Source of the DNA: Pseudodesulfovibrio thermohalotolerans
Lineage (GTDB): Bacteria > Desulfobacterota > Desulfovibrionia > Desulfovibrionales > Desulfovibrionaceae
Direction of reading: 5' to 3'
Assembly: GCF_021353295.2 (NCBI RefSeq)
Contig: NZ_CP120635.1
Coordinates: 683,501 to 747,500, forward strand
Length of the DNA: 64,000 nt
Below are positions 2,674 to 37,129 of this stretch, one piece after another. The notes beneath the pieces were generated by a model, which searched no databases, was not told where the DNA came from, and was given only the letters and a program-made list of their open reading frames with translations. The position numbers were made by a program, and so were the translations under genes. The number at the start of each line of letters is the position of its first letter. Position 1 is the stretch's first letter.

Positions 2674-4857
2674 ATGAGCGGATATCAGACTCGTCAGAAC
2701 GCGATCAATGCGGTGACCAATTACAAACCCAGCATCGAGCCGCTGAATTTCGCGGAGACCTCTCCGGCCGAGATTTTTGGTTCCAATGTCTTCACCGACA
2801 AGGTTATGAAGGGGATGTTGCCCAAGGAAGTCTACAAGTCCCTGATGAACACCAAGATGACCGGCGAGAAGTTGGACCCGTCCGTGGCCGGTCCCGTGGC
2901 CGCCGCCATGAAGGAATGGGCCATGTCCAAGGGCGCGACTCATTACACTCACGTCTTCTACCCCCTGACCGGCCTGACCGCCGAGAAGCATGACGGCTTT
3001 CTGAACCCCGACGGCGAGGGCGGCGCCATCGCCGAGTTCGACGGCAAGCTGCTGATCCAGGGCGAGCCCGACGCTTCCTCCTTCCCGTCCGGCGGCCTGC
3101 GCGCCACCTTTGAAGCCCGCGGCTACACCGCCTGGGACGTGACCAACCCGGCCTACATCCTTGAGAACACCAACGGCACCTTCCTGTGCATTCCCACCGC
3201 GTTCGTCTCCTGGAAGGGACACGCCCTGGACAAGAAGACTCCGCTGCTGCGCTCCAATCAGGCCCTGAACAAGGCCGGCCGCCGTTTCCTCAAGGTCTTC
3301 GGCACGGACGACGGCTCCATGGTCGTGTCCAACGCCGGTCCGGAGCAGGAATATTTCCTGCTGGACCGCAACTTTTTCTTTGCCCGTCCCGACCTGATGG
3401 TCTGCGGACGCACCCTGTTCGGCGCCAAGCCCTCCAAGGGCCAGGAGCTGGACGACCACTACTTCGGCGCCATCCCGCGCCGCGTGCTCTCCTTCATGAT
3501 GGAGGTCGAGCGTGAGCTGTACAAGCTGGGCGTGCCGGTCAAGACCCGTCACAACGAGGTCGCTCCCGGCCAGTTCGAGATCGCTCCGGTCTACGAGCAG
3601 TCCAACCTTGCCACCGACCACAACCAGATGGTCATGATTACCCTGAAGGCCGTGGCCAAGAAGCACGGCATGGCCTGCCTCCTGCACGAGAAGCCCTTCG
3701 CGGGCATCAACGGTTCCGGCAAGCACCTGAACTACTCCATCTCCACCGCCACCCAGGGTTCCCTGTACGCTCCGGGCAAGACCCCGCACGAGAACATGCA
3801 GTTCCTGGCGGTCACCGCGGCCACCATCCGTGCCGTCGAGAAATACTCCAAGCTGCTCCGTTCCGTGGTCGCCTCCGCAGGCAACGACCATCGCCTGGGC
3901 GCCAACGAAGCGCCTCCGGCCATCATCTCCGTCTTCCTGGGCGACGAGCTGGCCGAGATCTTCAACCAGATCGAGCTGGGCGACCTCAAGGGCTGCAAGT
4001 CCAAGGGCTGCCTTGAAGTGGGCGTCGACACCCTGCCTCCCCTGCCCATGGATTCCGGCGACCGTAACCGCACCTCCCCGTTTGCCTTCACCGGCAACCG
4101 TTTCGAGTTCCGCGCTGTCGGTTCCAACCAGTCCATCGCCGGCGCTCAGGTCGCTCTGAACACCATCATGGCCGACTCCCTGGACTTCGTCACCGAAGAG
4201 ATCCTCAAGATCACCGGCGGCAAGAAGGCCGGTTTGAAGGCTGCCTGCCAGAAGGTCCTTCAGGACATCATGAAGCAGCACGGCCACGTGATCTTCAATG
4301 GCGACGGTTATGCCGATGCATGGCAGAAGGAAGCTGCCAAGCGCGGCCTGCCCAACCTGAAGACCACCCCGGATGCGCTGCCCTCCATGATCGAGAAAGA
4401 TGTGGTCGAGGTCTTCGAGAAGTACAGCGTCCTGTCCAAGGATGAACTGCACTCCCGCTACGAAATCTACCACGAGCAGTACAACCAGCACATCCTCACC
4501 GAGTCGCTGCTGGTCGTGAAGATCGCCAAGACGATCATCCTGCCCGCCGCCATCCGCTACCAGGGCGAGCTGGCTCAGGTCGCCGCGTCCATCAAGGCCG
4601 CAGGCATCGAGCCCCGCACCATCCTGCTTCAGGAAGTCACCGACAAGCTGCGCGACCTGCAGCAGAACATTCTGACGCTGGAAGAGATCATCGCCAAGGA
4701 CGAGTTCGATTCCCCCGAGGAAGACGCCCGCTACAAGGTCGACAAGACCCTGCCCGCCATGCTCGCCATTCGCGAAGTGGCCGACAGCCTCGAAGGCATC
4801 GTGGCCGACGATCTCTGGCCTCTTCCCAGCTACCAGGAAATGCTCTTCATCAAGTAG
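2674..4857 (+). CDS. glnN: Glutamine synthetase, type III
   Basis: Encodes 727 residues, typical of the long type III enzyme (GSI is about 470). It makes glutamine from glutamate, ammonia and ATP in the cytoplasm. Visible signatures are [10 protein letters not shown] near residue 225, [10 protein letters not shown] near 347, [15 protein letters not shown] near 405 and [15 protein letters not shown] near 473; these form the metal, glutamate and nucleotide sites. The start ATG 2674 has GAAGGAG about 8 bases upstream. It is monocistronic, closed by a terminator at 4882. The long open frame on the opposite strand is a codon-bias shadow. No GlnB or ammonium transporter is adjacent. Confidence 0.96.
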
Positions 4858-4872
4858 TAGCGCGCCCCGAAA

Positions 4873-4909
4873 CAAAAAAGAGGCCCCGGTTTTCCGGGGC
4901 CTTTTTTTT
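4873..4909. terminator. Bidirectional terminator after glnN
   Basis: GGCCCCGG (4882-4889) pairs with CCGGGGCC (4894-4901) over a TTTT loop. Eight T follow on the plus strand and an A-run (4873-4879) precedes it, so it can work on either strand. Confidence 0.9.
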
Positions 4910-4929
4910 GTTTCGGCGCGCGTCGTCGG

Positions 4930-5375
4930 CTTCCGATAGCGGGCCGTCTGCACATTTTCCGAAGGGGGCTTTCATCCTCACGTAGAAGGCTACGCTGCGG
5001 TGAAAGCCCCCTTCGGAAAATGCACATCCGACCCACTCTCGAAAGCCTTACATTTTGCCAGCGCGAGAGCCGCTGTCGAGGGGGGCTTTGCCCCCTCGAA
5101 TCGCTCCAGGTTGGGTGAAGAGGGGAGGAGCGTGGGGGCGTTACGGCGTGCCAGCGCGAGAGCCGCTGTCGAGGGTGGGCTTTGCCCCCTCGAATCGCTC
5201 CAGGTTGGGGGAATCCGGGCCATCCGTAATGCATAGAACAGGGCGTGTCGGAGATTTCCGTCCGCGAAGCGGCGATAAAAAGTTTGGGAAAAGAAGGGGA
5301 TGGGGGTCCGGGGGAAGGGGAGGAAAGAACCCATTTCAAAGGGTTTTTCCACCCCATCCCCCCGCCGCCGGAGGC
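4930..5375. repeat. Structured intergenic repeat, copy A
   Basis: A gene-free block between convergent operons, related in order and sequence to 26437-26893. It has three parts. First, a perfect 21-bp inverted repeat (4954-4974 with 5001-5021) encloses a smaller hairpin CGTAG-AAGG-CTACG. Second, a hairpin unit occurs twice in tandem (5057-5115 and 5150-5209, period 93) with stem TCGAGGGGG/CCCCCTCGA in the first unit. Third, a purine-rich then pyrimidine-rich block (5281-5374) can fold back on itself. Stem bases differ from copy B while pairing is kept. There is no transposase or coding signal. Confidence 0.85.
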
Positions 5376-5415
5376 AAAAAAAAAGACGCGGCCGCGCACA
5401 GGTGCGGGGCCGCGT
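5376..5415 (-). terminator. Terminator of the GAK operon
   Basis: On the minus strand, stem ACGCGGCC (read from 5415) pairs with GGCCGCGT (to 5386) and is followed by nine T (5384-5376). It lies just past the last GAK gene, which ends at 5437. Confidence 0.85.
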
Positions 5416-5436
5416 TCAATCACATTGTCCGGGGCG

Positions 5437-5889
5437 TTATTCGCCGGAGATTTTGATCGGGTCGATCCGGGAGCCGTCATCGAGCCATTCGAGCTCGATT
5501 TCGCATTTGGCCTTGTCTTTTTTGCGGGCGAGCTTGAGTTCTACCTGCATGGAGTCGGGCACGCTGAGGACAAGGGTTCCCTCCTCGTTTTCGGCGCGTA
5601 TGACGCCGGATTCGAGGGAGTCGGCCAGGTCCTTGAGATAGGCGGCCAACTGGGGCGTGTCCATGGTCTGCTTGATCTTGATTTTGCCTTTGCCCATCGT
5701 ATCCTCCTCGTTTTCGGTTCCGACGGGGCTGAACAGTCCTTTTCGCGGTGCGGCGGCTGGTCCGTCGGTTTTCCCCTTGTCTGATGGGGGCGTGGTTCGC
5801 GTGGTTTTGCCGGAGGGGCGGGCCGCGTCGGGCGCGGCATCGGGCGTGACCCAATCAAGAGGATTGGTCCCGAGTCTCTCGTCGCTCAT
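5437..5889 (-). CDS. Amphi-Trp domain protein with N-terminal extension
   Basis: Encodes 150 residues. Residues 65-150 form an amphi-Trp domain: an amphipathic helix (LAAYLKDLADSLESG), then beta strands ending in the family's acidic-Trp element IELEWL. Residues 1-64 are a low-complexity Pro/Ala/Lys linker headed by MSDERLGTNPLDWV. Two starts are credible. ATG 5889 overlaps the parA stop (ATGA), implying translational coupling. An internal ATG at 5697 has a near-perfect GAGGAGG site 5 bases upstream and would give the usual stand-alone length of 86 residues. Both forms may be made. It is the last gene of the GAK operon. The function of amphi-Trp domains is not known. Confidence 0.8.
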   Translation of the reverse strand: MSDERLGTNPLDWVTPDAAPDAARPSGKTTRTTPPSDKGKTDGPAAAPRKGLFSPVGTENEEDTMGKGKIKIKQTMDTPQLAAYLKDLADSLESGVIRAENEEGTLVLSVPDSMQVELKLARKKDKAKCEIELEWLDDGSRIDPIKISGE

Positions 5890-6641
5890 GGGGCACCTCT
5901 GCGGAGCAGTTCCAGGGCCAGATTCCGATAATCGGCGGCCCCGTGGCTGCGGGGTTTGTAGGTGAAGATATCCTTGCCGAAGCTGGGTGCCTCGGCCAGG
6001 GAAATGTTGTCACGGATGGTCGTTTCCAGGAGGGCGTCGCCGAAGTAGTCCCTGATTTTGCGTCGGATTTCGCGGTTGAGCTTTTTGGTGCGCTGATATC
6101 GGGTCATGAGAATGCCGGTCAGGGCGAGGGCGGGGTTCCAGCCCTTGCGGATGACCTTGACCGTTTCCATGAGTTTTCCCAGGGATTGCAGGGCCAGAAA
6201 TTCGGGCTGCACCGGGACGAGTAGCTCCCCGGCGGCTACCATGGCGTTGAGAGTGAGCATACCGAGGTTGGGCGGGCAATCGAGGATGGCGAAGTCGTAG
6301 CCTGAGACGGTGGAAAGCGCGTCGCGCAGGCGGGATTCGCGTTTTTCGGCGGAGGCCAGATCGACCTCGGTTCCGGCCAGGGCCACGGAGGCGGGCACCA
6401 CGTGTAGCGGGCCGACCTCCATGGTCACTGCGCCTGTGGGACATTCACGCATCAGGACCGCGCTGACGGTCCGGGGCAGCTCGTGGGCCATTATGCCCAA
6501 CGAGTACGTCAGATGCGCCTGGGGATCGAGGTCCAACAGCAGCACGCGTTGGTCCTGCCGGGCCAGGGCGGCCCCCAGGTTCACGGCAGTGGACGTCTTG
6601 CCCACGCCCCCCTTCTGGTTCAGCACCGCGATAGTGCGCAT
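5886..6641 (-). CDS. ParA/Soj-family ATPase of the GAK locus
   Basis: Encodes 251 residues. ParA-type ATPases form ATP-dependent dimers that position DNA or protein cargo. The deviant Walker A motif KGGVGKT is at residues 10-16, with the signature Lys10. Walker A' is LLLDLDPQAH near residue 36 and Walker B is FAILDCPPNLG near residue 115. The chosen start, ATG 6641, is preceded by GGGG; longer frames upstream run into the preceding gene. No parB follows. The downstream gene instead begins MSDERLGTNPLDW and carries an amphi-Trp domain, so the cargo may be GAK-related rather than the chromosome. That is inference. Confidence 0.88.
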   Translation of the reverse strand: MRTIAVLNQKGGVGKTSTAVNLGAALARQDQRVLLLDLDPQAHLTYSLGIMAHELPRTVSAVLMRECPTGAVTMEVGPLHVVPASVALAGTEVDLASAEKRESRLRDALSTVSGYDFAILDCPPNLGMLTLNAMVAAGELLVPVQPEFLALQSLGKLMETVKVIRKGWNPALALTGILMTRYQRTKKLNREIRRKIRDYFGDALLETTIRDNISLAEAPSFGKDIFTYKPRSHGAADYRNLALELLRRGAP

Positions 6642-6658
6642 TATCCCCGAAGCCTCGC

Positions 6659-6844
6659 CTAGTGCGTGGTTTGAAGGGTTATCTTCTTGATGATGTATTC
6701 CCTTCCGTAGCGGTCGGTCAGGGAGTTGATCCGTTCGAGAATGCGATCCCGTTCGGCCTCGACCAGGTCGGGGTTTTCCTCTTCGATGCCGAACAGGTCG
6801 GCCACCTCGTTCCACTCAAAGGATTGATCTTGTGTTTCAGCCAT
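6659..6844 (-). CDS. Small acidic protein upstream of the ParA gene
   Basis: Encodes 61 residues, rich in Glu and Asp, with no membrane segment. Motif WNEVADLFGIEEENPD near residue 11 is followed by a helix of alternating charge. I do not recognise the family. GGAGATC lies about 6 bases before ATG 6844, and the gene sits 17 bases ahead of the ParA gene within the operon, so it is probably real and co-expressed. A partner or regulator of the ParA protein is possible but not shown. Confidence 0.7.
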   Translation of the reverse strand: MAETQDQSFEWNEVADLFGIEEENPDLVEAERDRILERINSLTDRYGREYIIKKITLQTTH

Positions 6845-6876
6845 TGTCTTGATCTCCGCAATTTGCAGTGACGGTG

Positions 6877-7452
6877 TTATTTCTTTCCGGCCGATTTGGC
6901 CGGTCTCTTGGCGGTGGGCTTTCTCGCCGCGCTCTTTTTGGCCGCCTTGGCCGGGCTTTTGCCGGTAGCGGCCTTCGGGGCCGCGGACTTGGCCGCGGAT
7001 GCAGGCTTGGCCTCGGGTTTTGGCGCGGGTTCGGATTTGGGCTCGGGTTTGGCCGGGACCTTGGATTCGGGCACGGCGGGCTGCTTTGCCTCCGCGTTTT
7101 TTGCCGGTGGCATGGCCGGTTCTTTGGCGACCGGAGCCTGGGCCTCGGGCTTGACGGCGGGCGCGCCGCCTTGGGGCTGCACCGCCGGGGCGGCGTGAAC
7201 GGTGTCGCCGATTTTCAGATCGGTTTCGGACGTATCGTTCCAGCTCAGCTCGAAGCCGATCTTCTGTTTGTCGTTCTTGACCTTGGCCTCGACCTTGACG
7301 GCCACCTGGGCCGAAGGCTTCATGACCACCTGCTCCTCGCCGCTCTCCAGCACGATGGTGCCGGATCGAAAGCTCTTGGCGATGTCTTCGATGTAGGACA
7401 CCGCGTCCTTGTACTCCAGGACCTTCTTGACGCTGAGTTTCTGCTTTTCCAC
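6877..7452 (-). CDS. Amphi-Trp protein with histone H1-like tail
   Basis: Encodes 191 residues from GTG 7452, chosen because AAAGGAGG lies 8 bases upstream; a longer frame to 7485 has no such site. Residues 1-80 are an amphi-Trp domain (helix EYKDAVSYIEDIAKSFRSG, closing element FELSW). Residues 95-191 are a low-complexity Ala/Pro/Lys tail that becomes strongly basic at the end (KPTAKRPAKSAGKK), like bacterial histone H1-like proteins. The tail could bind nucleic acid or an acidic partner; this is inference. The gene lies between the CofD-like gene and the small acidic-protein gene in the GAK operon. Confidence 0.85.
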   Translation of the reverse strand: MEKQKLSVKKVLEYKDAVSYIEDIAKSFRSGTIVLESGEEQVVMKPSAQVAVKVEAKVKNDKQKIGFELSWNDTSETDLKIGDTVHAAPAVQPQGGAPAVKPEAQAPVAKEPAMPPAKNAEAKQPAVPESKVPAKPEPKSEPAPKPEAKPASAAKSAAPKAATGKSPAKAAKKSAARKPTAKRPAKSAGKK

Positions 7453-7478
7453 GTTCGCAACCTCCTTTCGGTTGGCCG

Positions 7479-8675
7479 TCAGCAAAGCGACAGCAAAAAT
7501 TCGCTTATTGCGTGTCCGTCGAGGAACGGAGCGCTCCGCTCGGTGACGAGCGGCCCGTCGATGACCGTGAAGCCGTTTGCCTTCAGCCGGTCCTTTCCTA
7601 TGCCCCCCGCGTATTCGCCGTTTTTCGAATCCACCAGAATGTATCCGAGGACTTCGGCGTCCGTGCTCCCGGCATCGGCCGAAAGATGGCGGCAGAGGAC
7701 TTCCGCCTGGTCCGCCACGGACATCCCTGTTGTTTCGGGGTCGGCCCCGGTGGATGGTATGAACACCTTGGGGCAGGTGTTGGAGGCCACGGCCTTGCCC
7801 ACGCCGTCGGCCAGCAGATTGGCCACCACGCTGGAGTAGAAGCTGCCCGGCGGGTAGCAGATGAGGTCCGCCTTGCCGATCCAGTCCTTGATCTTGTTGC
7901 GGATGGCGGTGTGGGTTTTTTCGTCGGAATCCAGGGAAGGAGTCAGCCAGATGTCTTCCACGGGCGAGGTTATCGGCGCGGATTCCTTGCCGGTAATCAT
8001 GTGCTGGCCCACGATGGTTTGACCGTCGGCCAGGCGGACTGCCAGATGCAGGTCCTTGTTCACGGTGGGACGGACCACGCCGCAGACCTGGACCAGCTTG
8101 GAGAAAAGATAGATGACCGGGTCGAGCTGGCGGCGATTGGACAGATAGCCCGCCGTCAGGACCAGATTCCCGATGCTCGCGCCCCTGAGATCGAAGTCCG
8201 TGGGCATACGGTCAAGAAATTCGTAGAAATGGTTCCGGATGAGCTTGCGCATGGGGTCCGGGATGCGCCGGACAAGGGGATGCACGCCCGTGGCCATGGC
8301 GTCGAGCTCCCCGCGCAGGAACTCGTTTTCCGCTTCCTTGGGCAGGCGGTGGGTGAAGAGGCTGTAGATTTCGGGGTTGCCCTTCACGGACTGGTCGGCA
8401 AGGGCCATGAGCCGGTTGCGGATGTCGCCCACGGCGGGCATTCCGAAGGCCCGGCGGATGACCGCCGAGCTGCCGCCCGAGTCGAAGGGGGTGATGAGAT
8501 GGATGGAGTTGTGCGTGTAGCGGATCAGTTCCCGGGAGGTGTCGCGCAGGGCCGAGCCGCCGCTGAAGAAGAGCACGGACGGACCGAGTTCGGGGGCTCG
8601 CCTGAACTGCTCAAGTTTGCGGGGATCGGGAATGGTGACGTTCCTGGTGACTCGAATGCGCAATGTCCGCTCCAT
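7479..8675 (-). CDS. GAK system CofD-like protein
   Basis: Encodes 398 residues related to CofD/YvcK. CofD transfers phospholactate in F420 synthesis, and YvcK-type proteins bind nucleotide sugars. Fold landmarks are LFFSGGSALRDTSREL near residue 35, PFDSGGSSAVIRRAFG near 63, GASIGNLVLTAGYL near 175 and CYPPGSFYSSVVANLL near 280; these align with the nucleotide and phosphate loops of the superfamily. The start ATG 8675 overlaps the kinase stop by one base (TGATG). No F420 genes are nearby, so a different transfer reaction within the GAK pathway is more likely. The substrate is unknown. Confidence 0.88.
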   Translation of the reverse strand: MERTLRIRVTRNVTIPDPRKLEQFRRAPELGPSVLFFSGGSALRDTSRELIRYTHNSIHLITPFDSGGSSAVIRRAFGMPAVGDIRNRLMALADQSVKGNPEIYSLFTHRLPKEAENEFLRGELDAMATGVHPLVRRIPDPMRKLIRNHFYEFLDRMPTDFDLRGASIGNLVLTAGYLSNRRQLDPVIYLFSKLVQVCGVVRPTVNKDLHLAVRLADGQTIVGQHMITGKESAPITSPVEDIWLTPSLDSDEKTHTAIRNKIKDWIGKADLICYPPGSFYSSVVANLLADGVGKAVASNTCPKVFIPSTGADPETTGMSVADQAEVLCRHLSADAGSTDAEVLGYILVDSKNGEYAGGIGKDRLKANGFTVIDGPLVTERSAPFLDGHAISEFLLSLC

Positions 8676-9772
8676 CAATCGGTTGGGAGAAGGCCGGTTT
8701 TCATGTAATGCAAGCATACCTCGGAAGCTCGGTCGAAGTCTATGCCTCCGGAGATTTCTATGAGGTCCGCTCCGGCCAGGAGATCGGCGTAGGCGTCCTC
8801 GTCGGGGTCGCCGCTTCGCGCCGGATCGTCCGGGAGATAGAACAGGCCCGTGGACTTCATGAACGCGGGCAGGAGATCCTTGCGCTCTCTCGGGTCCACG
8901 AGGCTTGCGCGCATGGGCAGGTCTTCGCGCTTCCAGTTGAGAATGACCAGGCCGTTCATGGGACAGCGCAGTTCGAACCGGCCCGGTCCGTAGCATTCGT
9001 CGATGAGGGCGTCGTATTTGTGTTCAAGTTGCCACAGCTCGTCCGGCGGCATGGACAGGAAGCGTTCGCGCAGGTCCGGCTCCACGATGCGGCACAGGTC
9101 CGGGTTGTGCAGGGCGGTGCCGGGGTTGATGCGGGGCTGTTTGGCCACTCCGTACATGAACAACCCCTCGCCGTTCTTCTCAACCATGATCCGGTCGTTG
9201 GAGACGAAGATAGTGCCCTTGCTCATGAGGTGCAGGGCCAGGGTGGATTTGCCCGCGCCCGAGAATCCGGCCAGAGAGATGCCGCGCTCGCCCGAACGGA
9301 CGCCCGCGGCGTGCCCCAGGAATCCGCCCCGGTTGAGCTTCCATTCGATGAACCTGTTGTTGATGAAATTGATGACCTGGTTGGAGTTCTCCAGGCACGG
9401 CCCCACGGCCACGTTTTCGCCCTCGCCGAAGATGAAGTGCATTCCGGTCAGCCGCTTGCGCACGACCCGGCCGCCGGGCAGGTCGATCCATTCTTCCTTG
9501 ATCTTGGTCTTGCCGGGATCGGGCTGCTTGACGTTGAAGTCGAGATCGGACTCCGGGGCCGGGGTCTCGTGAGCCGAGACGACGATGGCGGAATCGCCGC
9601 TCTCGGCGACGAATTCCTTGAAGTAGTCGGCCAGGGCGTCGTTGAGTTCGTCCGAGGAACTGTCCACCCGGATGCGGCAGCCGCCGAGGTCGAGGAAAAG
9701 TGTGCGGGAGGCGGGGCGTGCCGTCTTCACGGCCTCGGCCAGTTCCCTGCGGGTCGTGCCGGTCAGTTTCAT
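8675..9772 (-). CDS. GAK system HprK-related kinase
   Basis: Encodes 365 residues. HprK is the bifunctional Ser kinase/phosphorylase of HPr; this relative belongs to a family found in peptide-modification and GAK neighbourhoods. The P-loop GFSGAGKST is at residues 169-177, followed by FVSNDRIMV near 189, which corresponds to the acidic base region. No HPr or PTS gene is nearby, so the substrate is probably not HPr. ATG 9772 overlaps the ATP-grasp stop by 4 bases, and the stop overlaps the CofD-like gene by one base. The three enzymes are thus translated as a coupled set. Confidence 0.9.
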   Translation of the reverse strand: MKLTGTTRRELAEAVKTARPASRTLFLDLGGCRIRVDSSSDELNDALADYFKEFVAESGDSAIVVSAHETPAPESDLDFNVKQPDPGKTKIKEEWIDLPGGRVVRKRLTGMHFIFGEGENVAVGPCLENSNQVINFINNRFIEWKLNRGGFLGHAAGVRSGERGISLAGFSGAGKSTLALHLMSKGTIFVSNDRIMVEKNGEGLFMYGVAKQPRINPGTALHNPDLCRIVEPDLRERFLSMPPDELWQLEHKYDALIDECYGPGRFELRCPMNGLVILNWKREDLPMRASLVDPRERKDLLPAFMKSTGLFYLPDDPARSGDPDEDAYADLLAGADLIEISGGIDFDRASEVCLHYMKTGLLPTD

Positions 9773-10641
9773 TTCAGTTTCTCCATGACGTAGTCCACGT
9801 AGCGCGCGGCCGCGTCGATGCCGCTGGTTTCCTGGATGCCCCGGAAGCCTCCGAACACGGAGACCTCGAAGACGTATGGGCCGTCGTCGGTGATGGCAAC
9901 GTCCACACAGGTGAAGTCGAGGTTGAAGTTGGCCTGGGCCCGACGGGCCAGCTCTATGATCTCGGGGGCGGGCTCGTAGCTCCTGTACTTGCCGCCCGAG
10001 GCCGTGGTGGTGTTCCACGCCCCGTTGGTCTTGCACCGGGCGTAGGTGGTCAGATATTCGCCGCCGAGGAAGGCGATGCCCAGGTCCAGGTCGCCCAGGT
10101 CGATGGTCTTCTGGATGTACATGATCGGGTGCTCGGTCCGGTACTCCTCGATGGCCGCTCTGGCGTCGGGACCGTTCTTCAGCACGAACATGCCGCGCGC
10201 CTTGGAGGTGTAGAGGGGCTTGAACACGGCTTCACCGTAGTTCTCCAGCGCCGTCATGGCCTGGTCCACGCTTTCGGTGATGGTCGTGGGCGGCATGGGG
10301 ATGTCCTTGAGCTGGAGGGAGATGGTGCAGGACAGCCGGTCCAGGGCGCGCAGGATGGAGTAGGGCGAGCTGAATATCCGAAGCCCCTTCTCGTGCAGGT
10401 AGCGAAGTACCTCCAGCCGGTCCAGGAGGTCCGGGGAATAGCGCGCGCCGATCTTCTTGATGATGAGGGCGTCGAAGTCGTTGAGGGTGTGCCCGTTGTA
10501 GTATGCGTTGCCCGACGGCAGGTCCAGGCGGACGTCCTCCATGTTGATGAGCACGCGTTCGCCGCCGGTTTTCTCGGCCACGGTGTCCGCCAGCTTTTCC
10601 GAGGACCAGCCTCCTTCGATGCCTATGACTCCTATCTTCAC
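9769..10641 (-). CDS. GAK system ATP-grasp enzyme
   Basis: Encodes 290 residues of the RimK-like ATP-grasp type, which ligate a carboxylate, via an acyl phosphate, to an amine or thiol. The N-terminal preATP-grasp domain begins MKIGVIGIEGGW. The ATP site includes AVFKPLYTSKARGMF near residue 139. The metal-binding strand DVAITDDGPYVFEVSVFGG near 248-266 has Glu259, but Ser261 stands where many RimK enzymes have Asn. The start is GTG 10641 with AAGGAGCC upstream. It is probably the ligase of the GAK pathway; neither acid nor amine substrate is known. Confidence 0.9.
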   Translation of the reverse strand: MKIGVIGIEGGWSSEKLADTVAEKTGGERVLINMEDVRLDLPSGNAYYNGHTLNDFDALIIKKIGARYSPDLLDRLEVLRYLHEKGLRIFSSPYSILRALDRLSCTISLQLKDIPMPPTTITESVDQAMTALENYGEAVFKPLYTSKARGMFVLKNGPDARAAIEEYRTEHPIMYIQKTIDLGDLDLGIAFLGGEYLTTYARCKTNGAWNTTTASGGKYRSYEPAPEIIELARRAQANFNLDFTCVDVAITDDGPYVFEVSVFGGFRGIQETSGIDAAARYVDYVMEKLK

Positions 10642-10660
10642 GAAAAGGCTCCTTGGTTGC

Positions 10661-12313
10661 CTAGTAGTAGAGGACGTCTTCGGGCAGGGAGAACCGCTCC
10701 CATGCCCCGCCCCGGAATTGGTGTATCTTTTCCAGCAGGAACATGGACCTGTTGTACATTTCCTTGGCGAACTTGAAGTTCAGCTCGAACCGTGTGGAAG
10801 TGTAGAAGGACCGCGCCAGGGCGAACGCCAGCCGCGCCTGAACCGTGTGGTCGTCGTGGCGCTGGGCGAATTGGAGGATGAATTTGTAAAACTGCTCGAT
10901 GACCGAATTGAGGCGGGCGCGGTGCGCGCTGTCGAAGATGGGGACGCGGAAGTTGGACACCAGGAAGACCGATGCGTCCTGGATGTAGTCGAAGTCGCGC
11001 GAACGGTACAGGTCGATGTAGTGAATCTGCTGGGCCTCGTGGTTGTAGACCACGTTGTTGATGTTGAAGTCGCCGTGGATGAACACCGAGAACGGCGCTT
11101 CCAGTTCGTCTTCGAGTTTCGCGCAGGCTTCGAGCAGGGCCTTGGTGGAGGCGACCTCCGAGGAGCCCAGGCTTTTGGGGTCGCGCCAGAACTGGGGATG
11201 GGTCTGGAGCACGCCTTCCAGCCGGGATTGGATCTGCCGGATGTAGTTGGTCTTGATGGGCAGGCGGACCATGGTGGTGCCCCAGGTCTCCAGCAGGGTG
11301 TTTTCCAGGATGAAGAGCGCGTTGCGGACCAGCTCGGCATCGCCCGAGAGGATGACCTCGTCCAGGGTGCAGCCGTTGAGGAACTCCACCAGCATGGACC
11401 CCTTGTCGGCGTCCTCGTGGAAACCGTAGATGTCGGCCACCAGGTTGGGGAATATCTGCTTCCAGCGCTGGATGGACTCGCGTTCCTTGCGGATTTTTTC
11501 CAGGCTTCCTTCCTTGTAGATGGAGCCCTGCTTTTTTTCCTCGGGCGTTAGCTCGCTTTCGCGGGTCTCGACCTTGCCGATGCGGCAGCCGGAGCGGGTG
11601 CCCCAGATGGCGCTGAAGTCGATGTCCGAAAAAGAGTCGCTGAATCCGGATTTGCTCAGGGTCTGCTGCAACGCCTCGAACTGCTCGATCTTGATGCGCT
11701 CACCCAGAAGGGAGAAGATGATCGCCTCGCCGATGTTCAGCAGCGCGTCGCCCACCCGTTCGAAGTATCGGAAGATGAACAGCACCGTAATCAGGGATTG
11801 GGCATCGCGGCCCATGCCCATTTCGTTCATGACCCGGTCGAAGCGGACCTTGTACACGTCGTCGAGCAGGGGCTCGGCCTTGCAGATGTAGAGCGCCTTG
11901 GACATGTCCTCGTTGTCGAAGGAATCCAGGATGCTCCCCAGCCGGTCAAGGATGATCTCGAAGACCTCGGTGTAGCCGTAGCGCTGCACGAAGGACTGAT
12001 CGTCGAGATATTGCATCTGCTTGACGATGTTGACGAAATAGTCGGCGATCTTTTCGAGGTTCACGCAGATGACCTGGATGGCGCGGATCTTGTTGAGCTG
12101 CCGCTTGTCCAAGGTCCGGTCCGAGTGGATGCGCGAATAGCACTTGTTCTCGATGATCGTCTTGAGGTTGTCGATGTAGTCGTCTCGCGAGGTGATCTTG
12201 GCGTACCGCTTGCGTGAAGGGGCGTCCATGAACTTCTGCGTGGAGCGGGCCTGGTTTTCCACCTCGTAGACGATGAACTTGAAGTTCTCGCCCAGTCCTT
12301 CGAATGTAATCAT
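10661..12313 (-). CDS. PhoU domain-aminoglycoside phosphotransferase-like fusion
   Basis: Encodes 550 residues. Residues 1 to about 220 look like a PhoU helical-bundle region (KIRAIQVICVNLEKIADYF; FRYFERVGDALLNIGEAII), normally seen in phosphate-signalling proteins. Residues about 260-500 form an APH/choline kinase-like fold with the catalytic loop HGDFNINNVVYN at 413-424 (Asp415, Asn418) and the metal-binding Asp434 in IHYIDLY. The protein could phosphorylate a small molecule or a protein under control of the PhoU part. It starts 4 bases after the preceding amphi-Trp gene. The pairing of domains is clear by eye; the function is not. Confidence 0.85.
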   Translation of the reverse strand: MITFEGLGENFKFIVYEVENQARSTQKFMDAPSRKRYAKITSRDDYIDNLKTIIENKCYSRIHSDRTLDKRQLNKIRAIQVICVNLEKIADYFVNIVKQMQYLDDQSFVQRYGYTEVFEIILDRLGSILDSFDNEDMSKALYICKAEPLLDDVYKVRFDRVMNEMGMGRDAQSLITVLFIFRYFERVGDALLNIGEAIIFSLLGERIKIEQFEALQQTLSKSGFSDSFSDIDFSAIWGTRSGCRIGKVETRESELTPEEKKQGSIYKEGSLEKIRKERESIQRWKQIFPNLVADIYGFHEDADKGSMLVEFLNGCTLDEVILSGDAELVRNALFILENTLLETWGTTMVRLPIKTNYIRQIQSRLEGVLQTHPQFWRDPKSLGSSEVASTKALLEACAKLEDELEAPFSVFIHGDFNINNVVYNHEAQQIHYIDLYRSRDFDYIQDASVFLVSNFRVPIFDSAHRARLNSVIEQFYKFILQFAQRHDDHTVQARLAFALARSFYTSTRFELNFKFAKEMYNRSMFLLEKIHQFRGGAWERFSLPEDVLYY

Positions 12314-12317
12314 GGGC

Positions 12318-12584
12318 TCAGCGAACCTTGAGGAAGGCGTTTTCCGACGCCTGGACGGATGTGGATTCCTTCCAGGTCACCTTGATGGAGAGCTTGTTTT
12401 CCGTCCCTTTCTTCTTGGCCTTGACCGTGAAGTTGAGAAGGCCCTGGGGTTCGAGATGAATCTCGTTGCCGTTGGTGGACAGGTCTATGGAATGTTTTTC
12501 GAATCCCTCGATGAGGGCTTCGAGGAAGTTCTTGATGGTATCACAGTCCTGGAGCGAATCGAATACGAATTTTTCTTCTGCCAT
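12318..12584 (-). CDS. Stand-alone amphi-Trp domain protein
   Basis: Encodes 88 residues and consists only of an amphi-Trp domain. Helix TIKNFLEALIEGFEKHS is followed by beta strands with LEPQGLLNFTVKAKKKG, closing with IKVTWKES, which carries the conserved Trp. ATG 12584 is preceded by GGACACCCC. The gene is wedged between the PHP-like gene and the PhoU-APH gene with gaps of 17 and 4 bases, so it is part of the GAK operon. By analogy with other GAK loci it may be the small protein acted on by the enzymes, but this is inference. Confidence 0.85.
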   Translation of the reverse strand: MAEEKFVFDSLQDCDTIKNFLEALIEGFEKHSIDLSTNGNEIHLEPQGLLNFTVKAKKKGTENKLSIKVTWKESTSVQASENAFLKVR

Positions 12585-12601
12585 GGGGTGTCCTTGCCTG
12601 C

Positions 12602-13762
12602 CTATCCCGCCAGGCGGGCTTTGTATTCTTTGATGATCGAACGTCTGGAGATGTTGTTGATGATGAGCTTCTTGCGGATGCGCAGGTCGTCCCAGGCGGG
12701 CTGAAGGCCGATTTCTCGGGCCGCCTTGTCCGAATCCTGCTGCTCCAGAGGCTTGGTCTTCTCGCCCATGTGGCAGTCGTCGCCCATGAAGATGAGCTTG
12801 TCCCTGCCCGAGGCGCGTCGGCCGTTCTGTTCGTTGACCACGGAAATGAGAAATTCGGTGTATTCCTGCGACTGGGGGTTCCAGACCTCGATGCCGTCCA
12901 CGTCGTAGTCGCGCAGCAGGATGGGCCAGAATTGCTCCGGGTGGGGGATGACGATGCAGCCTCCCAGGGACCGGACCTCCTCGATGACCTCGCTGGCCCG
13001 GTAGAAGAAGGACAGGTCGAAACCCTCCTTGACCAGCTTCTTGACGACCTTGAGGTATGCCTGGACCCGGTCCACGGCGTTGTCGCCGAGCTCGCCCCGC
13101 ATGGCGTCGAACCAGTTGCGCAGCAGCTTGTTTTTGACCGACAGGCGCGGGACATCGGTCCAGTGCTCGTCGAGGAGACGCTCCACCTTGGAGACGTTGA
13201 TCCGGACGAAATCGATAAGTTCCTGATCGGCTCCCGTCGCCTTGGCGGCGCGCTCGATGCGGGCCTCGTCGGGCTTGGTGATGGTGTGCATGAAGTCGAA
13301 GAGCTGACCCGAACGGTATTTGAAGGTGTGGGCCAGCATGGACTTGAGCACGCCCGCGTCCGCGACCCGCTCGTTGGTGAAATGCAGCAGGAGCTGCACC
13401 TTTCGGTTGAAGCCGGAGGAGAAGCAGTCCACCTCCACCCCGGTGTAGCCGTCCCAGCTCATGAGCTGGTTGTGCTGGGTGGGGATGAGCAGTTCGTCCG
13501 TGCGGTTGGGGAACATGGCGTCCACCCGGGTCCGGATATGCTCCATGGGCACGAATTCCGGGTGCCAGTGCACGGCCAGCAGGGCCTCCTGGCGGACATG
13601 GACCTGTTGAGGGGTGACCACCTGCTCCACCTGCCACGGTTCCAGGTCCGTGGAGACCACGGCGAAGAACCGCGCCTGGTCGGCTTCGGTGATTTCCTCG
13701 TCGATGTGGGCCGGGAAGGCACGGCAGTCGCAGGCCTTCGGGTCGTTCTTGATGAGTTTCAT
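12602..13762 (-). CDS. PHP-like metal-dependent hydrolase of the GAK locus
   Basis: Encodes 386 residues. Features recall the PHP phosphoesterase superfamily: HWHPEF at residues 65-70, VIPHPEQFWP near 272, GIEVWNPQSQEY near 291 and FMGDDCHMGEKT near 328. These could supply the metal ligands of a PHP site, though the first motif is not the standard HxHxxxSDG. The N terminus has a Cys pair (CDC, residues 11-13). It follows the XXXCH gene after 24 bases. A phosphatase or hydrolase role opposite the kinases of this operon is an inference. Confidence 0.72.
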   Translation of the reverse strand: MKLIKNDPKACDCRAFPAHIDEEITEADQARFFAVVSTDLEPWQVEQVVTPQQVHVRQEALLAVHWHPEFVPMEHIRTRVDAMFPNRTDELLIPTQHNQLMSWDGYTGVEVDCFSSGFNRKVQLLLHFTNERVADAGVLKSMLAHTFKYRSGQLFDFMHTITKPDEARIERAAKATGADQELIDFVRINVSKVERLLDEHWTDVPRLSVKNKLLRNWFDAMRGELGDNAVDRVQAYLKVVKKLVKEGFDLSFFYRASEVIEEVRSLGGCIVIPHPEQFWPILLRDYDVDGIEVWNPQSQEYTEFLISVVNEQNGRRASGRDKLIFMGDDCHMGEKTKPLEQQDSDKAAREIGLQPAWDDLRIRKKLIINNISRRSIIKEYKARLAG

Positions 13763-13786
13763 GGGCGTCGTTCCGGGTCGGGTGTT

Positions 13787-14311
13787 TCAGTCATATTTGG
13801 CGTGGCAACGCCCCTTTTCATGGACCAGGGCGTCCACGGCGGCGTGCATCCGTTCCAGGTCGCCGGATTCATAGGCGGCCTTGAACTCCGCGCAGGCGGC
13901 CGTGTAGCTTTCGTAATATTCGTCCCCGTAGCCGGGGTATGTGACCATGAGAGCCGAGTCGGCCAGGAAGGCGTCCACGGCCTCCTGGGGCGGCACGCTG
14001 CCGTCGTGGATCATCTTGAGCAGTATCTTGAAGCTGGAGCGCATACGCTTCTTGAGGGCCTTGTACTTGGGCTTTTTTGGCTGCCCGTCTTCGCCGACGA
14101 CCTCCTCCGTACAGGGCTTGGCTGCCTTGAACTTGGCCTTGAGGCTGATCTGTCCGTATTCGTTCTTCACGCCGATCTTGATCTTGCGGAAATCGTCCAC
14201 GCAGGCGAACTCGTCATGTCCGCCGTTTTCGACGGCATCGGCCAGTTCGCGGAAGAAGGCGGCAAGCTCCTTCGGGTCAAGATATTTGCTGATGGTCATG
14301 TCGTTGCTCAT
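13787..14311 (-). CDS. GAK system XXXCH-type protein
   Basis: Encodes 174 residues and is the first gene of the GAK operon. The C terminus ends EKGRCHAKYD, which fits the short Cys-His signature of the XXXCH family (Cys169, His170). Residues 8-65 resemble a divergent amphi-Trp domain (LDPKELAAFFRELADAVENG, then IKIGVKNEYGQISLKAKFK). A helical middle and end carry several Tyr and acidic residues. ATG 14311 is chosen for TTGGAG 6 bases upstream; a TTG at 14323 would add four residues. The Cys-His end may be a heme, metal or modification site. No function is established. Confidence 0.85.
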   Translation of the reverse strand: MSNDMTISKYLDPKELAAFFRELADAVENGGHDEFACVDDFRKIKIGVKNEYGQISLKAKFKAAKPCTEEVVGEDGQPKKPKYKALKKRMRSSFKILLKMIHDGSVPPQEAVDAFLADSALMVTYPGYGDEYYESYTAACAEFKAAYESGDLERMHAAVDALVHEKGRCHAKYD

Positions 14312-14340
14312 AGAGGACTCCAATGGAATTAATTGTTATC

Positions 14341-14370
14341 TGTATACCTGAAAAAAACAGTTCAAGACAA
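14341..14370 (-). promoter_or_regulatory. Candidate promoter of the GAK operon
   Basis: On the minus strand TTGTCT (14370-14365) is followed after 18 bases by TATACA (14346-14341), a fair sigma-70 match. It lies about 30 bases before the XXXCH gene start at 14311 and would drive the 11-gene operon. Confidence 0.4.
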
Positions 14371-14657
14371 TGTGCTTCACAGGATTGTCACAATTATTCA
14401 CACAGGAAGGGGAGGTGAAGAGCGGGGCCGGGAAGCCGCCTCTGTTTCATTTGGGAGGGATGTCGCCAATAGGGCGGTCATGCCCGAAAGGCGCATGGCG
14501 CGTTTTCATTATGGATTTTAATTCGGCCGCCGCCATTGGGCGGATCGCTTTGCCGGGTAGTCGCTTCAATTCCTGATGGACGGCCGGGCGCGACTCGGGG
14601 GCGCGGTCCCGTGCGTCCGGCCTCTTTTTTCCCTATCTGTCGGCGGTCAGGGGCCGG
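14371..14657. other. Gene-poor region with an orphan plus-strand terminator
   Basis: About 290 bases separate the GAK promoter from the oxidoreductase gene, both of which read leftward. Plus-strand open frames here (up to 68 codons) lack family features and clear starts. The stretch is rich in short GC hairpins and ends in a plus-strand terminator at 14582-14628, which has no annotated gene to serve. Confidence 0.5.
14582..14628 (+). terminator. Orphan plus-strand terminator
   Basis: GGCCGGGCGC (14582-14591) pairs with GCGTCCGGCC (one G-U pair, 10 bp), followed by TCTTTTTT. The T-run is on the plus strand only, yet both flanking genes are on the minus strand. A small RNA or short peptide transcript may end here. 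Confidence 0.6.
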
Positions 14658-15653
14658 TCAGCAGGCGAGCCATTCCCCGAGGCGGGCGCTTCGGGCGAGT
14701 GTTTCGAGAACGTGCATATTGTCGAAGGCGTCGGAGAGCGGGGTGGGCACATCCGTGTTCTCAAGGATGGCCTCGGCGAACAGTTCGGCCTGGATGGCGT
14801 ACTGGTCGTAGGCGTCGAAGGTGATGGTCTCGATGACTCCCGCCGCGTCGTCCTGGAGAAGGATGATGCACGGCCTGTCGGGCGGGGCGTTGAAGGGGAT
14901 GGGAATCTGGATGCGGCCCGTGGTGCCGAAGATGTCGACTTGCTGGTAGGGGGTGAGCTGCGTGGAGCAGGTGAAGGAGGATATCCTGCCGCCGAAGTCC
15001 ATCATGCCGGAGAAAAGCCGGTCGGTGTTGAACTCGGGGTCGATGTCGGAGAAACCCGCGACGCGTTCGGGTTCGGAATCGAAGATAAGTCGGGACAGGG
15101 AGATGCTGTAGCAGCCTATGTCCATGAGCCCGCCGCCGCCTATGTCGGCCATGTTCCGTATGTTGGCGGGGTCGTCGTTGTAATAGGAGAAGAAGGACTG
15201 GATGGCGGTCGTTTCACCGATGGCCCCGGACCGGACAAGCTCCGCGGTTTTGATCCACTGCGGATGGAAGCGGTACATGAACGCCTCCATTATCTTGAGC
15301 TTCGGATGCTCGGCGGCGGCGTCGAGCAGGGTCTGGGCCTCGTCCGAGGTCAGGGCCACGGGCTTTTCGCAGAGCACGTGCTTGCCCGCTTCGAGGGCGG
15401 CCTTGGCCCAGGGCGTATGCAGGTGGTTGGGCAGCGGAATGTAGACCGCGTCGATGTCGGGATCGCCCAGCAGATCTTCGTAGCTGCCATAGGCTTTGGG
15501 AATGTTCAGCTCCAGTGCGGCCCGGCGGGCGCGGTCCTCGTCGCGGGAGGCGATGGCCGTGACCTCGCAGTTCGAGGCCTGGCGCATCCCCGGTATTACC
15601 TTGGTGCGGCCGATCTTGGCCGTGGAAAGAACGCCGATACGGACTGTTTTCAT
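14658..15653 (-). CDS. Gfo/Idh/MocA-family oxidoreductase
   Basis: Encodes 331 residues. These NAD(P)-dependent enzymes oxidise or reduce sugars, inositols and related polyols. The Rossmann start is RIGVLSTAKIGRTKVIPGM (residues 5-23), and the family EKP motif is in HVLCEKPVAL near residue 94, which holds the catalytic Lys. The C-terminal substrate domain contains GGGLMDIGCYSISLSRL. ATG 15653 has GGGGGA about 5 bases upstream. It is monocistronic and divergent from ppnP. The substrate is not predictable. Confidence 0.9.
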   Translation of the reverse strand: MKTVRIGVLSTAKIGRTKVIPGMRQASNCEVTAIASRDEDRARRAALELNIPKAYGSYEDLLGDPDIDAVYIPLPNHLHTPWAKAALEAGKHVLCEKPVALTSDEAQTLLDAAAEHPKLKIMEAFMYRFHPQWIKTAELVRSGAIGETTAIQSFFSYYNDDPANIRNMADIGGGGLMDIGCYSISLSRLIFDSEPERVAGFSDIDPEFNTDRLFSGMMDFGGRISSFTCSTQLTPYQQVDIFGTTGRIQIPIPFNAPPDRPCIILLQDDAAGVIETITFDAYDQYAIQAELFAEAILENTDVPTPLSDAFDNMHVLETLARSARLGEWLAC

Positions 15654-35910: not shown

Positions 35911-35935
35911 GCAAGGATAGGGGAAAGGGGGAATC

Positions 35936-37129
35936 ATGAACAGCAGAGTGATACCCATATCGCTGGCAGTCATCGACAAGGAGCAGCGGGACCGTCTGGA
36001 AAAGATGGTCGCCGCCAATCCCATGGTTCGGCTGGCCGCCGACGATTCGGACGAGATGGGCGTGCTCATCTACGAGCCCGGCGACTCCGTCGAGGAGGAC
36101 ATGCCGCACATCATCCACGCCCTGGAGTCCGGTCAGGCCGAAGACGTCTACCTGACGGGCAACGCGGCGGACCCCGAGATTCTCATCCGGGCGATGCGCA
36201 GCGGCATCCGCGAATATCTCGAATTTCCCGTGGCCGAGAACGACCTGCGCGCGGCGGTTTTGCGCACGGCCATGCGCATGAGCCTGGGCGTGGACGAAAC
36301 GGACAAGGGGCGCATCCTCACCGTCATGGGCTGCAAGCCCGGCGTGGGGACCACCTCCCTGGCCGTGAACCTGGCCTGCGCCCTGAACGAGAACGCCCCC
36401 GGCCGCACGGTGCTCCTGGACCTCCGCCAGCCCATGGGCGAGATTCCCTATTTCCTGGACCTCAAATACGATTACACCTGGGGCGACCTGGTGGTCGACA
36501 TCTCCCGTCTGGACGCCACCTATCTGCGCAGCGTCATTTCCGAACACGAATCCGGCTTGCACGTTCTGCCCGGTCCGGTCTCCACGGACCGTCCCGACGA
36601 CCAGACCCTGCTCCTTATTCTGGAACAGCTCCGCGGCGCGTATGACTTCGTGGTGGTGGACGCTTCCACCCCCGGCGACGACGATCTGCCCAAGGAAGTG
36701 GAGTTGGCGGATTCCATCCTGCTGACCATGCAGCTCTCCCTGCCGTGTTTGGCCCACGTGGCCCGGCTGACCGAATCCCTCGGCGGCCAGGACCCGGACA
36801 CGGATCGGCGGCTTCGCGTGATCGCCAACCGCGTGACCCGTAACGCCTCCATCGGTATTGCCGAGGCGGCCGAGGTCCTGGGCCGCGAGATAGCCTGGTC
36901 CATTCCCGAGGACGGGGACTCCGTTCTTTCCGCCATCAACCAGGGCACTCCGCTGATCCAGGCCTTTCCCAAGTCGCCCTCGGCCAAGGCCGTGCGGACC
37001 GTCGCCAAGGGCTTTGCGCCCGAGCGGAAGAAGACCGGCAAGGGCTTCGGCCTGCCGTTCGCCTCATTCTTCCGCAAAAAAGGCAAGGACTCGGACACCA
37101 ATGACAATCTGGCGGGAGCGGCCTTATGA
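35936..37129 (+). CDS. tadZ: TadZ/CpaE-type ATPase
   Basis: Encodes 397 residues. The N-terminal 120 residues resemble a degenerate receiver domain (PISLAVIDKEQRDRLEKMVA), followed by a MinD/ParA-like ATPase. The P-loop is the atypical GCKPGVGTTSLAVNLA near residue 131, as in CpaE. TadZ locates the Tad machine at the pole. The gene overlaps tadA by 4 bases (ATGA at 37126). Confidence 0.9.
   Translation: MNSRVIPISLAVIDKEQRDRLEKMVAANPMVRLAADDSDEMGVLIYEPGDSVEEDMPHIIHALESGQAEDVYLTGNAADPEILIRAMRSGIREYLEFPVAENDLRAAVLRTAMRMSLGVDETDKGRILTVMGCKPGVGTTSLAVNLACALNENAPGRTVLLDLRQPMGEIPYFLDLKYDYTWGDLVVDISRLDATYLRSVISEHESGLHVLPGPVSTDRPDDQTLLLILEQLRGAYDFVVVDASTPGDDDLPKEVELADSILLTMQLSLPCLAHVARLTESLGGQDPDTDRRLRVIANRVTRNASIGIAEAAEVLGREIAWSIPEDGDSVLSAINQGTPLIQAFPKSPSAKAVRTVAKGFAPERKKTGKGFGLPFASFFRKKGKDSDTNDNLAGAAL

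Follow-up and report, generated by a model that had tools for sequence, protein, structure and literature searches.

The GAK (grasp, amphi-Trp, kinase) system is a set of five NCBIfam families, TIGR04354 to TIGR04358, and a literature search found no paper on it, only the database family names. Its parts are most readily compared with proteins of other described systems, namely, ATP-grasp ligases of the RimK/MptN/CofF kind, the kinase HprK/P, the YvcK/GlmR (UPF0052) and CofD proteins, PHP phosphoesterases (BAD_1165 and RNase AM), cytochromes b562 and c', and Pst-PhoR-PhoB/PhoU signaling. RimK-type ligases usually add glutamate to a protein C terminus or to a small acid, HprK/P enzymes can run in reverse with phosphate, yielding pyrophosphate, and PhoU normally reports phosphate sufficiency to PhoR. 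The window, a 64-kb stretch of the 3.89-Mb single-contig genome of Pseudodesulfovibrio thermohalotolerans, carries eleven minus-strand genes that span positions 14311 to 5437, with intergenic gaps of 4 to 32 bases or overlaps of 1 to 4 bases. All five named GAK families score above their NCBIfam cutoffs in this one cluster, and they are adjacent and in the order seen elsewhere. A reading of the sequence alone, made without database searches, had proposed a GAK operon with gaps of at most 32 bases or short overlaps. Both the measured spacing and the profile searches, in which the ATP-grasp, kinase, CofD-like, and XXXCH proteins match their family models above the cutoffs, agree with it. The operon is a GAK system, and on balance we favor the interpretation that it belongs here to the Pho regulon and works by the modification mechanism proposed below. 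The features of the operon, in the direction of transcription, are as follows.

14377..14393, minus strand: PhoB-box-like 11-bp direct repeat TTGTGAC-AATC-CTGTGA, 66 to 82 bp upstream of gene 1
13787..14311, minus strand: gene 1, XXXCH protein, predicted amphi-Trp-like domain plus b562/c'-like bundle (TIGR04358, profile, and fold)
12602..13762, minus strand: gene 2, PHP-fold metal phosphoesterase by predicted fold, core
12318..12584, minus strand: gene 3, amphi-Trp protein 1, short, stops just past the domain (TIGR04354, 69 bits)
10661..12313, minus strand: gene 4, PhoU domain fused to an APH-like kinase, core (PF01895 and PDB profiles)
9769..10641, minus strand: gene 5, GAK ATP-grasp ligase, RimK/MptN-like (TIGR04356)
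8675..9772, minus strand: gene 6, HprK-related kinase B (TIGR04355)
7479..8675, minus strand: gene 7, GAK CofD-like protein, YvcK/GlmR-type (TIGR04357)
6877..7452, minus strand: gene 8, amphi-Trp protein 2, long Lys/Ala/Pro histone-like tail, GTG start (TIGR04354, 64 bits)
6659..6844, minus strand: gene 9, small acidic protein, lineage extra (no family match)
5886..6641, minus strand: gene 10, ParA-type ATPase, lineage extra (NF041546, below the cutoff)
5437..5889, minus strand: gene 11, amphi-Trp protein 3, N-terminal LGTNPLDWV extension (TIGR04354, 62 bits)
5386..5399, minus strand: terminator-like hairpin plus T run after the last gene (sequence search)

Core genes and distribution of the GAK system

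Related loci were found by a scan with an alignment of 12 kinase sequences (A1), and the best 80 of 296 relatives were kept (loci are given L numbers and compared genomes G numbers, G000 being the window's own genome). Their genes were detected by iterated profiles built from the window proteins and counted in those 54 loci whose sequence extends 5.5 kb or more upstream and 3.5 kb or more downstream of the kinase. The ligase is present in all 54, PhoU-APH in 53, amphi-Trp in 53 (34 with two copies), PHP in 48, CofD in 47, and XXXCH in 32, a count that is possibly low, as the XXXCH profile may overlook divergent members. The common order among loci is XXXCH, PHP, amphi-Trp, PhoU-APH, ligase, HprK, CofD, and amphi-Trp, with some rearrangements and losses. 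The core, in its fixed order, occurs in records titled Desulfobacterota-type sulfate reducers, Zixibacteria, Nitrospinota, Eisenbacteria, Phycisphaerae, and Lambdaproteobacteria.

Among 158 genomes of the phylum, 13 were ligase positive (12 above the cutoff, plus G078 with a ligase fragment below it). The kinase was found in 12 of the 13, PhoU-APH (counted from matches of at least 600 bits) in 12, and PHP in 11, and each of the three was found in 0 of the 145 ligase-negative genomes. PHP is lacking in two ligase-positive genomes, G042 (67% complete) and G078 (62% complete). CofD was detected in 9 ligase-positive genomes (8 above the cutoff and one broken in two pieces, below the cutoff) and in 3 of the 145 negative ones, XXXCH above the cutoff in 6 and 3, respectively, and the amphi-Trp family above the cutoff in 28 of the 158 genomes. 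The co-occurrence of ligase, kinase, PHP, and PhoU-APH makes PHP and PhoU-APH part of the functional unit; amphi-Trp, XXXCH, and, in some cases, CofD are also found on their own. The expectation that the genes do not assort independently thus holds for the first four and only in part for the others. The NCBIfam GAK set leaves out PHP and PhoU-APH, although they are linked about as tightly as the named enzymes. Compared with that set, this locus additionally has a ParA gene, a small acidic protein, and a third amphi-Trp protein, and these three are the only extras; the "extra components" of the sequence-only reading were correctly named in their case, but PHP and PhoU-APH belong to the core.

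CofD_rel_GAK is also above the cutoff in three genomes of the same family, G138 (L152), G076 (L153), and G109, where no match to kinase, ligase, PHP, XXXCH, or amphi-Trp was obtained. The stand-alone gene adjoins an mnmE-like gene in G138 and G076 and, in G138, an rluA-like gene as well (names by inspection).

Association with phosphate genes and a PhoB-type box

Upstream of gene 1 lies a two-repeat sequence with an 11-bp period, the form of PhoB box by which membership in the Pho regulon may be predicted from sequence. PMC3333781 gives the D. vulgaris PhoB box as a direct repeat of (c/t)GT(n)AC, which the GAK repeat resembles, and the E. coli box has an 11-bp period, as in the GAK relatives. 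The matrix used for scoring was the E. coli consensus, which is also given in PMC3333781. With it, the window site scores 13.3 bits, and 0 of 300 shuffles (first-order Markov resamplings, also used for the replicate genomes below) scored as high. The pattern has eight exact matches genome-wide (two overlapping), compared with three for the reversed control; one lies 113 bp before pstB and one before a PhoR/PnpS-like kinase that scores below the cutoffs, and the site at 14377..14393 is the only exact match in the window.

The same box was sought in 70 upstream regions, from 69 of the 80 loci and the window; the remaining loci had at most 320 bases before the first gene found or nothing upstream of the kinase. 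A site of at least 11 bits on the coding strand with period 11 precedes the first gene in 18 of the 70 regions, the median distance to the point where that gene's profile match starts being 114 bases. The same matrix at periods 8 to 10 and 12 to 16 gives 0 to 2 of 70 (1 of 70 at period 10), and the period-11 box on the opposite strand gives 6 of 70. Upstream regions of other open reading frames (ORFs) in the same loci have it in 15 of 429 cases (Fisher test, 1e-8); these controls are mechanical ORFs of at least 200 amino acids, some of them not genuine genes, which lowers the control rate, and the period control is independent of them. Among the best-scoring control matches, several are located ahead of pst-, phoB-, or olsF-like genes, where a genuine box would be expected. 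Counted per kinase cluster (60% identity), the box is present in 13 of 36, compared with 1 or 2 at four other periods.

Phosphate genes also recur beside the operon. pst or phoU genes are found in 8 of the 80 loci (L046, L058, L064, L065, L068, L071, L084, and L095, where the match is a short PstS piece at a contig end), against a rough Poisson expectation of 0.4 to 1.3. They form a single same-strand run with GAK in L071, L065, L068, and L084, and in L071 a pstS-C-A-B-phoU run leads straight into XXXCH. In G089, a pstB match and phoU-, phoB-, and phoR-like genes (by inspection) lie just past the XXXCH end of the GAK operon on the same contig. Other recurrent neighbors were grouped by single-linkage BLAST, so that more than one subfamily may be present within the histidine-kinase, regulator, and ABC groups, and one or two members per group were annotated. 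They comprise a GT4 glycosyltransferase (14 loci), response regulators (11 loci) and histidine kinases (10 loci), whose single annotated representatives are nearest to PhoB and PnpS/PhoR, below the cutoff, an OlsF-like acyltransferase (6 loci; two annotated, with 390 and 412 bits against a cutoff of 620), and a P-type ATPase (6 loci), of which the one annotated by NCBIfam, in L103, is Mg2+ translocating and above the cutoff. EAL/GGDEF, MCP, and ArsC-like groups recur too and are less specific. According to PMC5193443, the genes of importance to D. alaskensis G20 when phosphate is limiting include those for Agt (a glycosyltransferase), OlsF, Pst, and PhoR, and olsF and agt mutants grow poorly in that condition. 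As a statistical association across lineages, the phosphate link is strong; for this single operon, it is moderate. The sequence-only reading had overlooked this link, as well as the two-domain build of the XXXCH protein.

The P-type cation ATPase gene lies just past the GAK kinase or CofD gene in L075, L090, L103, and L042, and the first three of these loci are without CofD, PHP, and XXXCH.

Predicted activities of the GAK enzymes

The ATP-grasp ligase (gene 5) matches TIGR04356 (grasp_GAK) with 451 bits (cutoff, 300). Its nearest named family after that is MptN (146 bits), followed by a RimK match of 103 bits, and RimK in PDB is matched with an E value of 7e-23. It aligns full length with the RimK/MptN/CofF ligases but scores under all of their equivalog cutoffs, and at the C-terminal motif that is EVN in the aligned RimK structure, the GAK ligase has EVS (S261), in 35 of 35 relatives. 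The kinase of gene 6 matches TIGR04355 (HprK_rel_B) with 553 bits (cutoff, 200), and its similarity to HprK in PDB (E value, 7e-5) covers profile positions 147 to 198 only. It has the Walker A and nearby catalytic Asp motifs of HprK/P, the sequences G-x-GKSTLAL and SNDR being invariant in 12 sequences.

The CofD-like protein (gene 7) matches TIGR04357 (CofD_rel_GAK) with 544 bits (cutoff, 340), and Pfam CofD is above its cutoff. Its PDB profile matches are 2ppv (E value, 7e-36) and then UPF0052 proteins. The motifs D65-SGGSS and G83-D84-x-R86 are invariant in 35 sequences and align with the D-SGGSS and GDxR motifs of its PDB relative, as in YvcK/GlmR and CofD. The score on the YvcK model is 120 bits, under the cutoff of 196. 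By its PDB matches, the protein groups with YvcK/GlmR.

Gene 4 joins a PhoU domain (PF01895, 61.9 bits; cutoff, 23.5) to a kinase domain that matches the APH/EcKL families weakly; the PDB profile matches are PhoU (E value, 1e-18) and APH (2.5e-4). The APH half has an invariant H413-G-D415-x-N417-x-x-N420 and D434. What gene 4 and its operon share with Pst-PhoR-PhoB/PhoU signaling is thus the PhoU domain, the pst/phoU linkage, and the PhoB-type repeat; they differ in that PhoU is here fused to a kinase and scores 81 bits on the PhoU equivalog TIGR02135, against a cutoff of 130.25.

The label of PHP-like protein given to gene 2 in the sequence-only reading is supported by the predicted fold and not by any sequence family. 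Gene 2 had no match in NCBIfam or Pfam and no significant match to PHP proteins in PDB sequence-profile searches, and no Pfam PHP model was listed for any of the 27 members of its family at E values up to 1. The predicted fold is that of PHP phosphoesterases such as BAD_1165 and RNase AM, and the fold neighbors include 2yb1, solved with Mn, AMP, and phosphate (families absent from secondary fold searches were not counted as excluded). The invariant residues of the 27 sequences include 11 His, Asp, or Glu residues that are candidate metal ligands. In a Pfam scan of ten of the eleven proteins (ParA omitted), genes 1, 2, and 9 had no match. The catalytic motifs are kept, and no sign of a dead enzyme was observed.

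The XXXCH protein

Gene 1 matches TIGR04358 with 114 bits (cutoff, 40) and appears to consist of an amphi-Trp-like part (residues 3 to 71), which gives a profile match to amphi-Trp with an E value of 1.4e-7 and is modeled as strand, helix, strand, strand, and a four-helix b562/c'-like bundle (residues 83 to 173) with C169-H170. The predicted bundle with a C-terminal His ligand is that of cytochromes b562 and c', and the C-terminal CHxxYK falls on their heme-ligand motif. Among 32 XXXCH relatives, Pfam Cytochrom_B562 is matched in 14 and Cytochrom_C_2 in 11, and the window's own copy matches neither. The PDB profile search placed a designed porphyrin-binding protein first (E value, 0.001) and cytochrome c' after it. 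Foldseek gave no match for the model at an E value of 0.001 or below, and helical bundles inflate Z scores; YiiS (2k3i) was at Foldseek rank 40. Unlike class II cytochrome c', which has CxxCH, the XXXCH protein is without the first Cys: in the alignment of the 32 sequences, the second Cys is nearly invariant, the His is invariant, and the first Cys is not kept. It also differs from both cytochromes in that a cytoplasmic-looking amphi-Trp domain precedes the bundle and heme binding is only predicted. A b562/c'-like protein of this build predicts a colored cytoplasmic protein.

Two-domain amphi-Trp-XXXCH-like proteins also occur outside GAK operons in L116 to L123. Seven of these eight loci come from genomes that lack the GAK enzymes, and L123 is an additional copy in G089; the Cys-His pair is retained in these proteins and M122 is not. 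L124 and L135 each have an XXXCH-like bundle of about 93 residues as a protein of its own, followed by an exported-looking protein and a deaminase-like gene. The neighbors of amphi-Trp and XXXCH genes outside GAK showed no clear common partner beyond the close relatives L116 and L117 and one pair, found in G009 and G047, that consists of a 233-residue exported-looking protein and a deaminase-like gene (names by inspection).

Amphi-Trp proteins and lineage-specific genes

The three amphi-Trp proteins match TIGR04354 with 69, 64, and 62 bits (cutoff, 31). Proteins of the amphi-Trp 1 kind mostly stop right past the last strand, often with ISS or IGS, and many amphi-Trp 2 proteins extend as long tails; that of gene 8 is a long Lys/Ala/Pro tail with a net charge of +12. 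Two kinds of C terminus would thus be offered to the ligase. Matches of amphi-Trp to PDB sequences were to de novo designs (E values, 3e-5 and 0.002) and were judged to be chance.

The small acidic protein (gene 9) has no family match in NCBIfam or Pfam, and its relatives were found only in L036 and L038 among the 80 loci; it was counted in 2 of the 54 well-flanked loci. Gene 10, which the sequence-only reading called a ParA ATPase, has the KGGVGKTS motif, but its matches to ParA-type families fall below the cutoffs (NF041546, 113 bits against 180). Close relatives of it stand beside GAK in 2 of the 54 loci, L037 and L039; a third profile match, in L086, is a distant Mrp-like gene and was not counted. 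ParA and amphi-Trp 3 are found together in the window, L037, and L039, and in all three the N terminus of amphi-Trp 3 has the motif LGxNPLxWV (MGVNPLAWV in L037). This may be a ParA-contacting peptide, perhaps positioning modified proteins in the cell.

Genomic surroundings

Terminator-like sites number 20 in the region against 11.3 expected, and the hairpin at 5386-5399 is thus weak alone. A glutamine-synthetase-like reading frame at 2674-4857 (name by inspection) is convergent with the operon, and between the two, at 5045-5213, lie two direct repeat copies of about 75 bases with a spacing of 93 to 94 bases. A second RimK-type ATP-grasp gene (G000:C1:673659-674486, 85 bits to grasp_GAK) is located about 9 kb before the window start. 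A CpaE/TadZ-like ParA-family gene at 35921-37126 on the plus strand (name by inspection) is unrelated to the operon. Rfam matched nothing within 4850-15000.

Proposed mechanism and alternative explanations

From the families, predicted folds, active-site motifs, gene order, co-occurrence, and statistical Pho-box and pst linkage computed here, we infer PhoB control in vivo, the substrates, the reaction directions, and the cofactor as follows. When phosphate runs short, the operon would be turned on by PhoB bound to the direct repeat at 14377-14393. In gene 4, the PhoU half would relay the state of phosphate, of a metal, or of the PstB/PhoR complex and control the fused APH-type kinase, a fusion through which phosphorylation could depend directly on the phosphate state. 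The amphi-Trp proteins, or a small molecule carried by them, would be modified with phosphate by the HprK-like kinase, with an amino acid by the RimK/MptN-like ligase, and with a nucleotide-derived group by the YvcK-like CofD protein; one of the phosphate steps would be reversed or recycled by the PHP phosphoesterase. XXXCH would be an amphi-Trp protein that additionally binds a heme-like or metal cofactor. Given the reversal of HprK/P with phosphate, the HprK-like protein might itself sense phosphate as well. The conserved active-site motifs, the PHP phosphatase fold, and the strict gene order fit the earlier idea of a pathway that ligates, phosphorylates, and dephosphorylates, with amphi-Trp proteins as carriers or substrates. 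The further step of regarding GAK as a new phosphate-responsive class of protein modification, in which PhoU-gated and HprK-type kinases and a RimK-type ligase mark amphi-Trp proteins, one of them a cytoplasmic b562/c'-type heme protein, is tentative and rather improbable as it stands; such a class would couple phosphate supply to redox or envelope state, with an HprK-type kinase that is perhaps phosphate reversible, as HprK/P is.

Several results weigh against a single phosphate-controlled unit. CofD, XXXCH, and amphi-Trp are also found without GAK enzymes. PHP is missing in 6 of the 54 loci (L055, L075, L090, L092, L095, and L103), five of which retain the ligase, kinase, and PhoU-APH, and CofD is missing in 7 (L055, L075, L090, L103, L105, L112, and L114). 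G118 has the ligase, PHP, and PhoU-APH, and no kinase was found in it. With one mismatch allowed, the window has 3 matches to the box pattern versus 1.75 expected, which is not above chance. No coding-strand site of 11 bits is present in 52 of the 70 upstream regions, and when ten further GAK genomes were scored as a replicate, with the matrix unchanged, only one (G130) reached at least 11 bits; the site in G015 is weaker (P = 0.013) but scores better at another spacing. A Pho box in every relative is ruled out by these 52 regions and 9 genomes. The wording of the D. vulgaris box in PMC3333781, 6-bp repeats with a 4-bp spacer, literally gives a 10-bp period, whereas that of the GAK relatives is 11.

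The enzyme set would also suit a cofactor pathway, in which a CofD-like transferase, an MptN/CofF-like ligase, kinases, and a phosphatase build a small molecule carried by amphi-Trp proteins, such as a phosphodiester-linked acid with an amino-acid tail like the side chain of F420 or tetrahydrosarcinapterin. The rank of MptN as nearest named family after grasp_GAK (146 bits), the Pfam CofD match, and the Mn, AMP, and phosphate in the PHP fold neighbor 2yb1 are consistent with it. However, the five PDB matches of the CofD-like protein are all of the YvcK/UPF0052 kind and none is named 2-phospholactate transferase, no CofC- or CofE-like gene is among the annotated recurrent neighbors (no search by name was made), and the PhoU domain and phosphate linkage are left unexplained. 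We consider this pathway unlikely. A comparably low probability attaches to a signaling triad analogous to HprK-Crh/HPr-YvcK of Bacillus, with the HprK-like kinase phosphorylating a serine of amphi-Trp, which would take the role of HPr or Crh, and the YvcK-like protein reading a nucleotide sugar, the output tuning envelope or carbon metabolism. The HprK-like and YvcK-like genes do adjoin, with 85-residue partner domains, but the strand, helix, strand, strand of the amphi-Trp-like part differs from the HPr order, and the triad has no place for the ligase or PHP. In its favor, GlmR/YvcK is reported to bind UDP-GlcNAc and, in Listeria, to be an accessory uridyltransferase.

Less probable again is a role in phosphate or magnesium storage, with amphi-Trp proteins bearing histone-like tails coating a phosphorus-rich granule, ParA spacing the granule, and the enzymes controlling its making. 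The long basic Lys/Ala/Pro tail of gene 8, the ParA gene with its linked amphi-Trp protein, and the P-type cation ATPase adjoining the kinase in L075, L090, and L103 (of the Mg2+ kind in L103) would be accounted for. However, of 33 downstream amphi-Trp proteins with tails of at least 40 residues, 7 are basic and 9 acidic, this ParA stands beside GAK in only the 2 of 54 loci noted above, and no polyphosphate kinase is among the annotated neighbors (no dedicated search was made). A literature search found no paper on Desulfovibrio tripolyphosphate granules. A conflict or defense island in place of a physiological system is very improbable. Its distribution within the family is patchy, G000 and G040 carrying the system and G076, G109, and G138 being without kinase, ligase, and PHP matches, but PADLOC, run on ten of the eleven proteins, returned only a weak ParA match (24.5 bits), and the phosphate-gene neighborhood and promoter speak against defense.

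Significance of the GAK system

GAK is a conserved multienzyme system found in six phylum-level groups, as judged by record titles. As far as the literature search goes, the inclusion of PHP and PhoU-APH as core parts, the domain makeup of XXXCH, and the phosphate link are new. The pst, phoU, olsF-like, and glycosyltransferase neighbors, together with the PhoB-type box, provide a first concrete condition under which GAK activity can be sought. PMC5193443 describes phosphorus as thought to be limiting for microbes in many anoxic, stratified settings. Sulfate reducers inhabit such settings, and a dedicated phosphate-stress modification system would therefore bear on their survival there.

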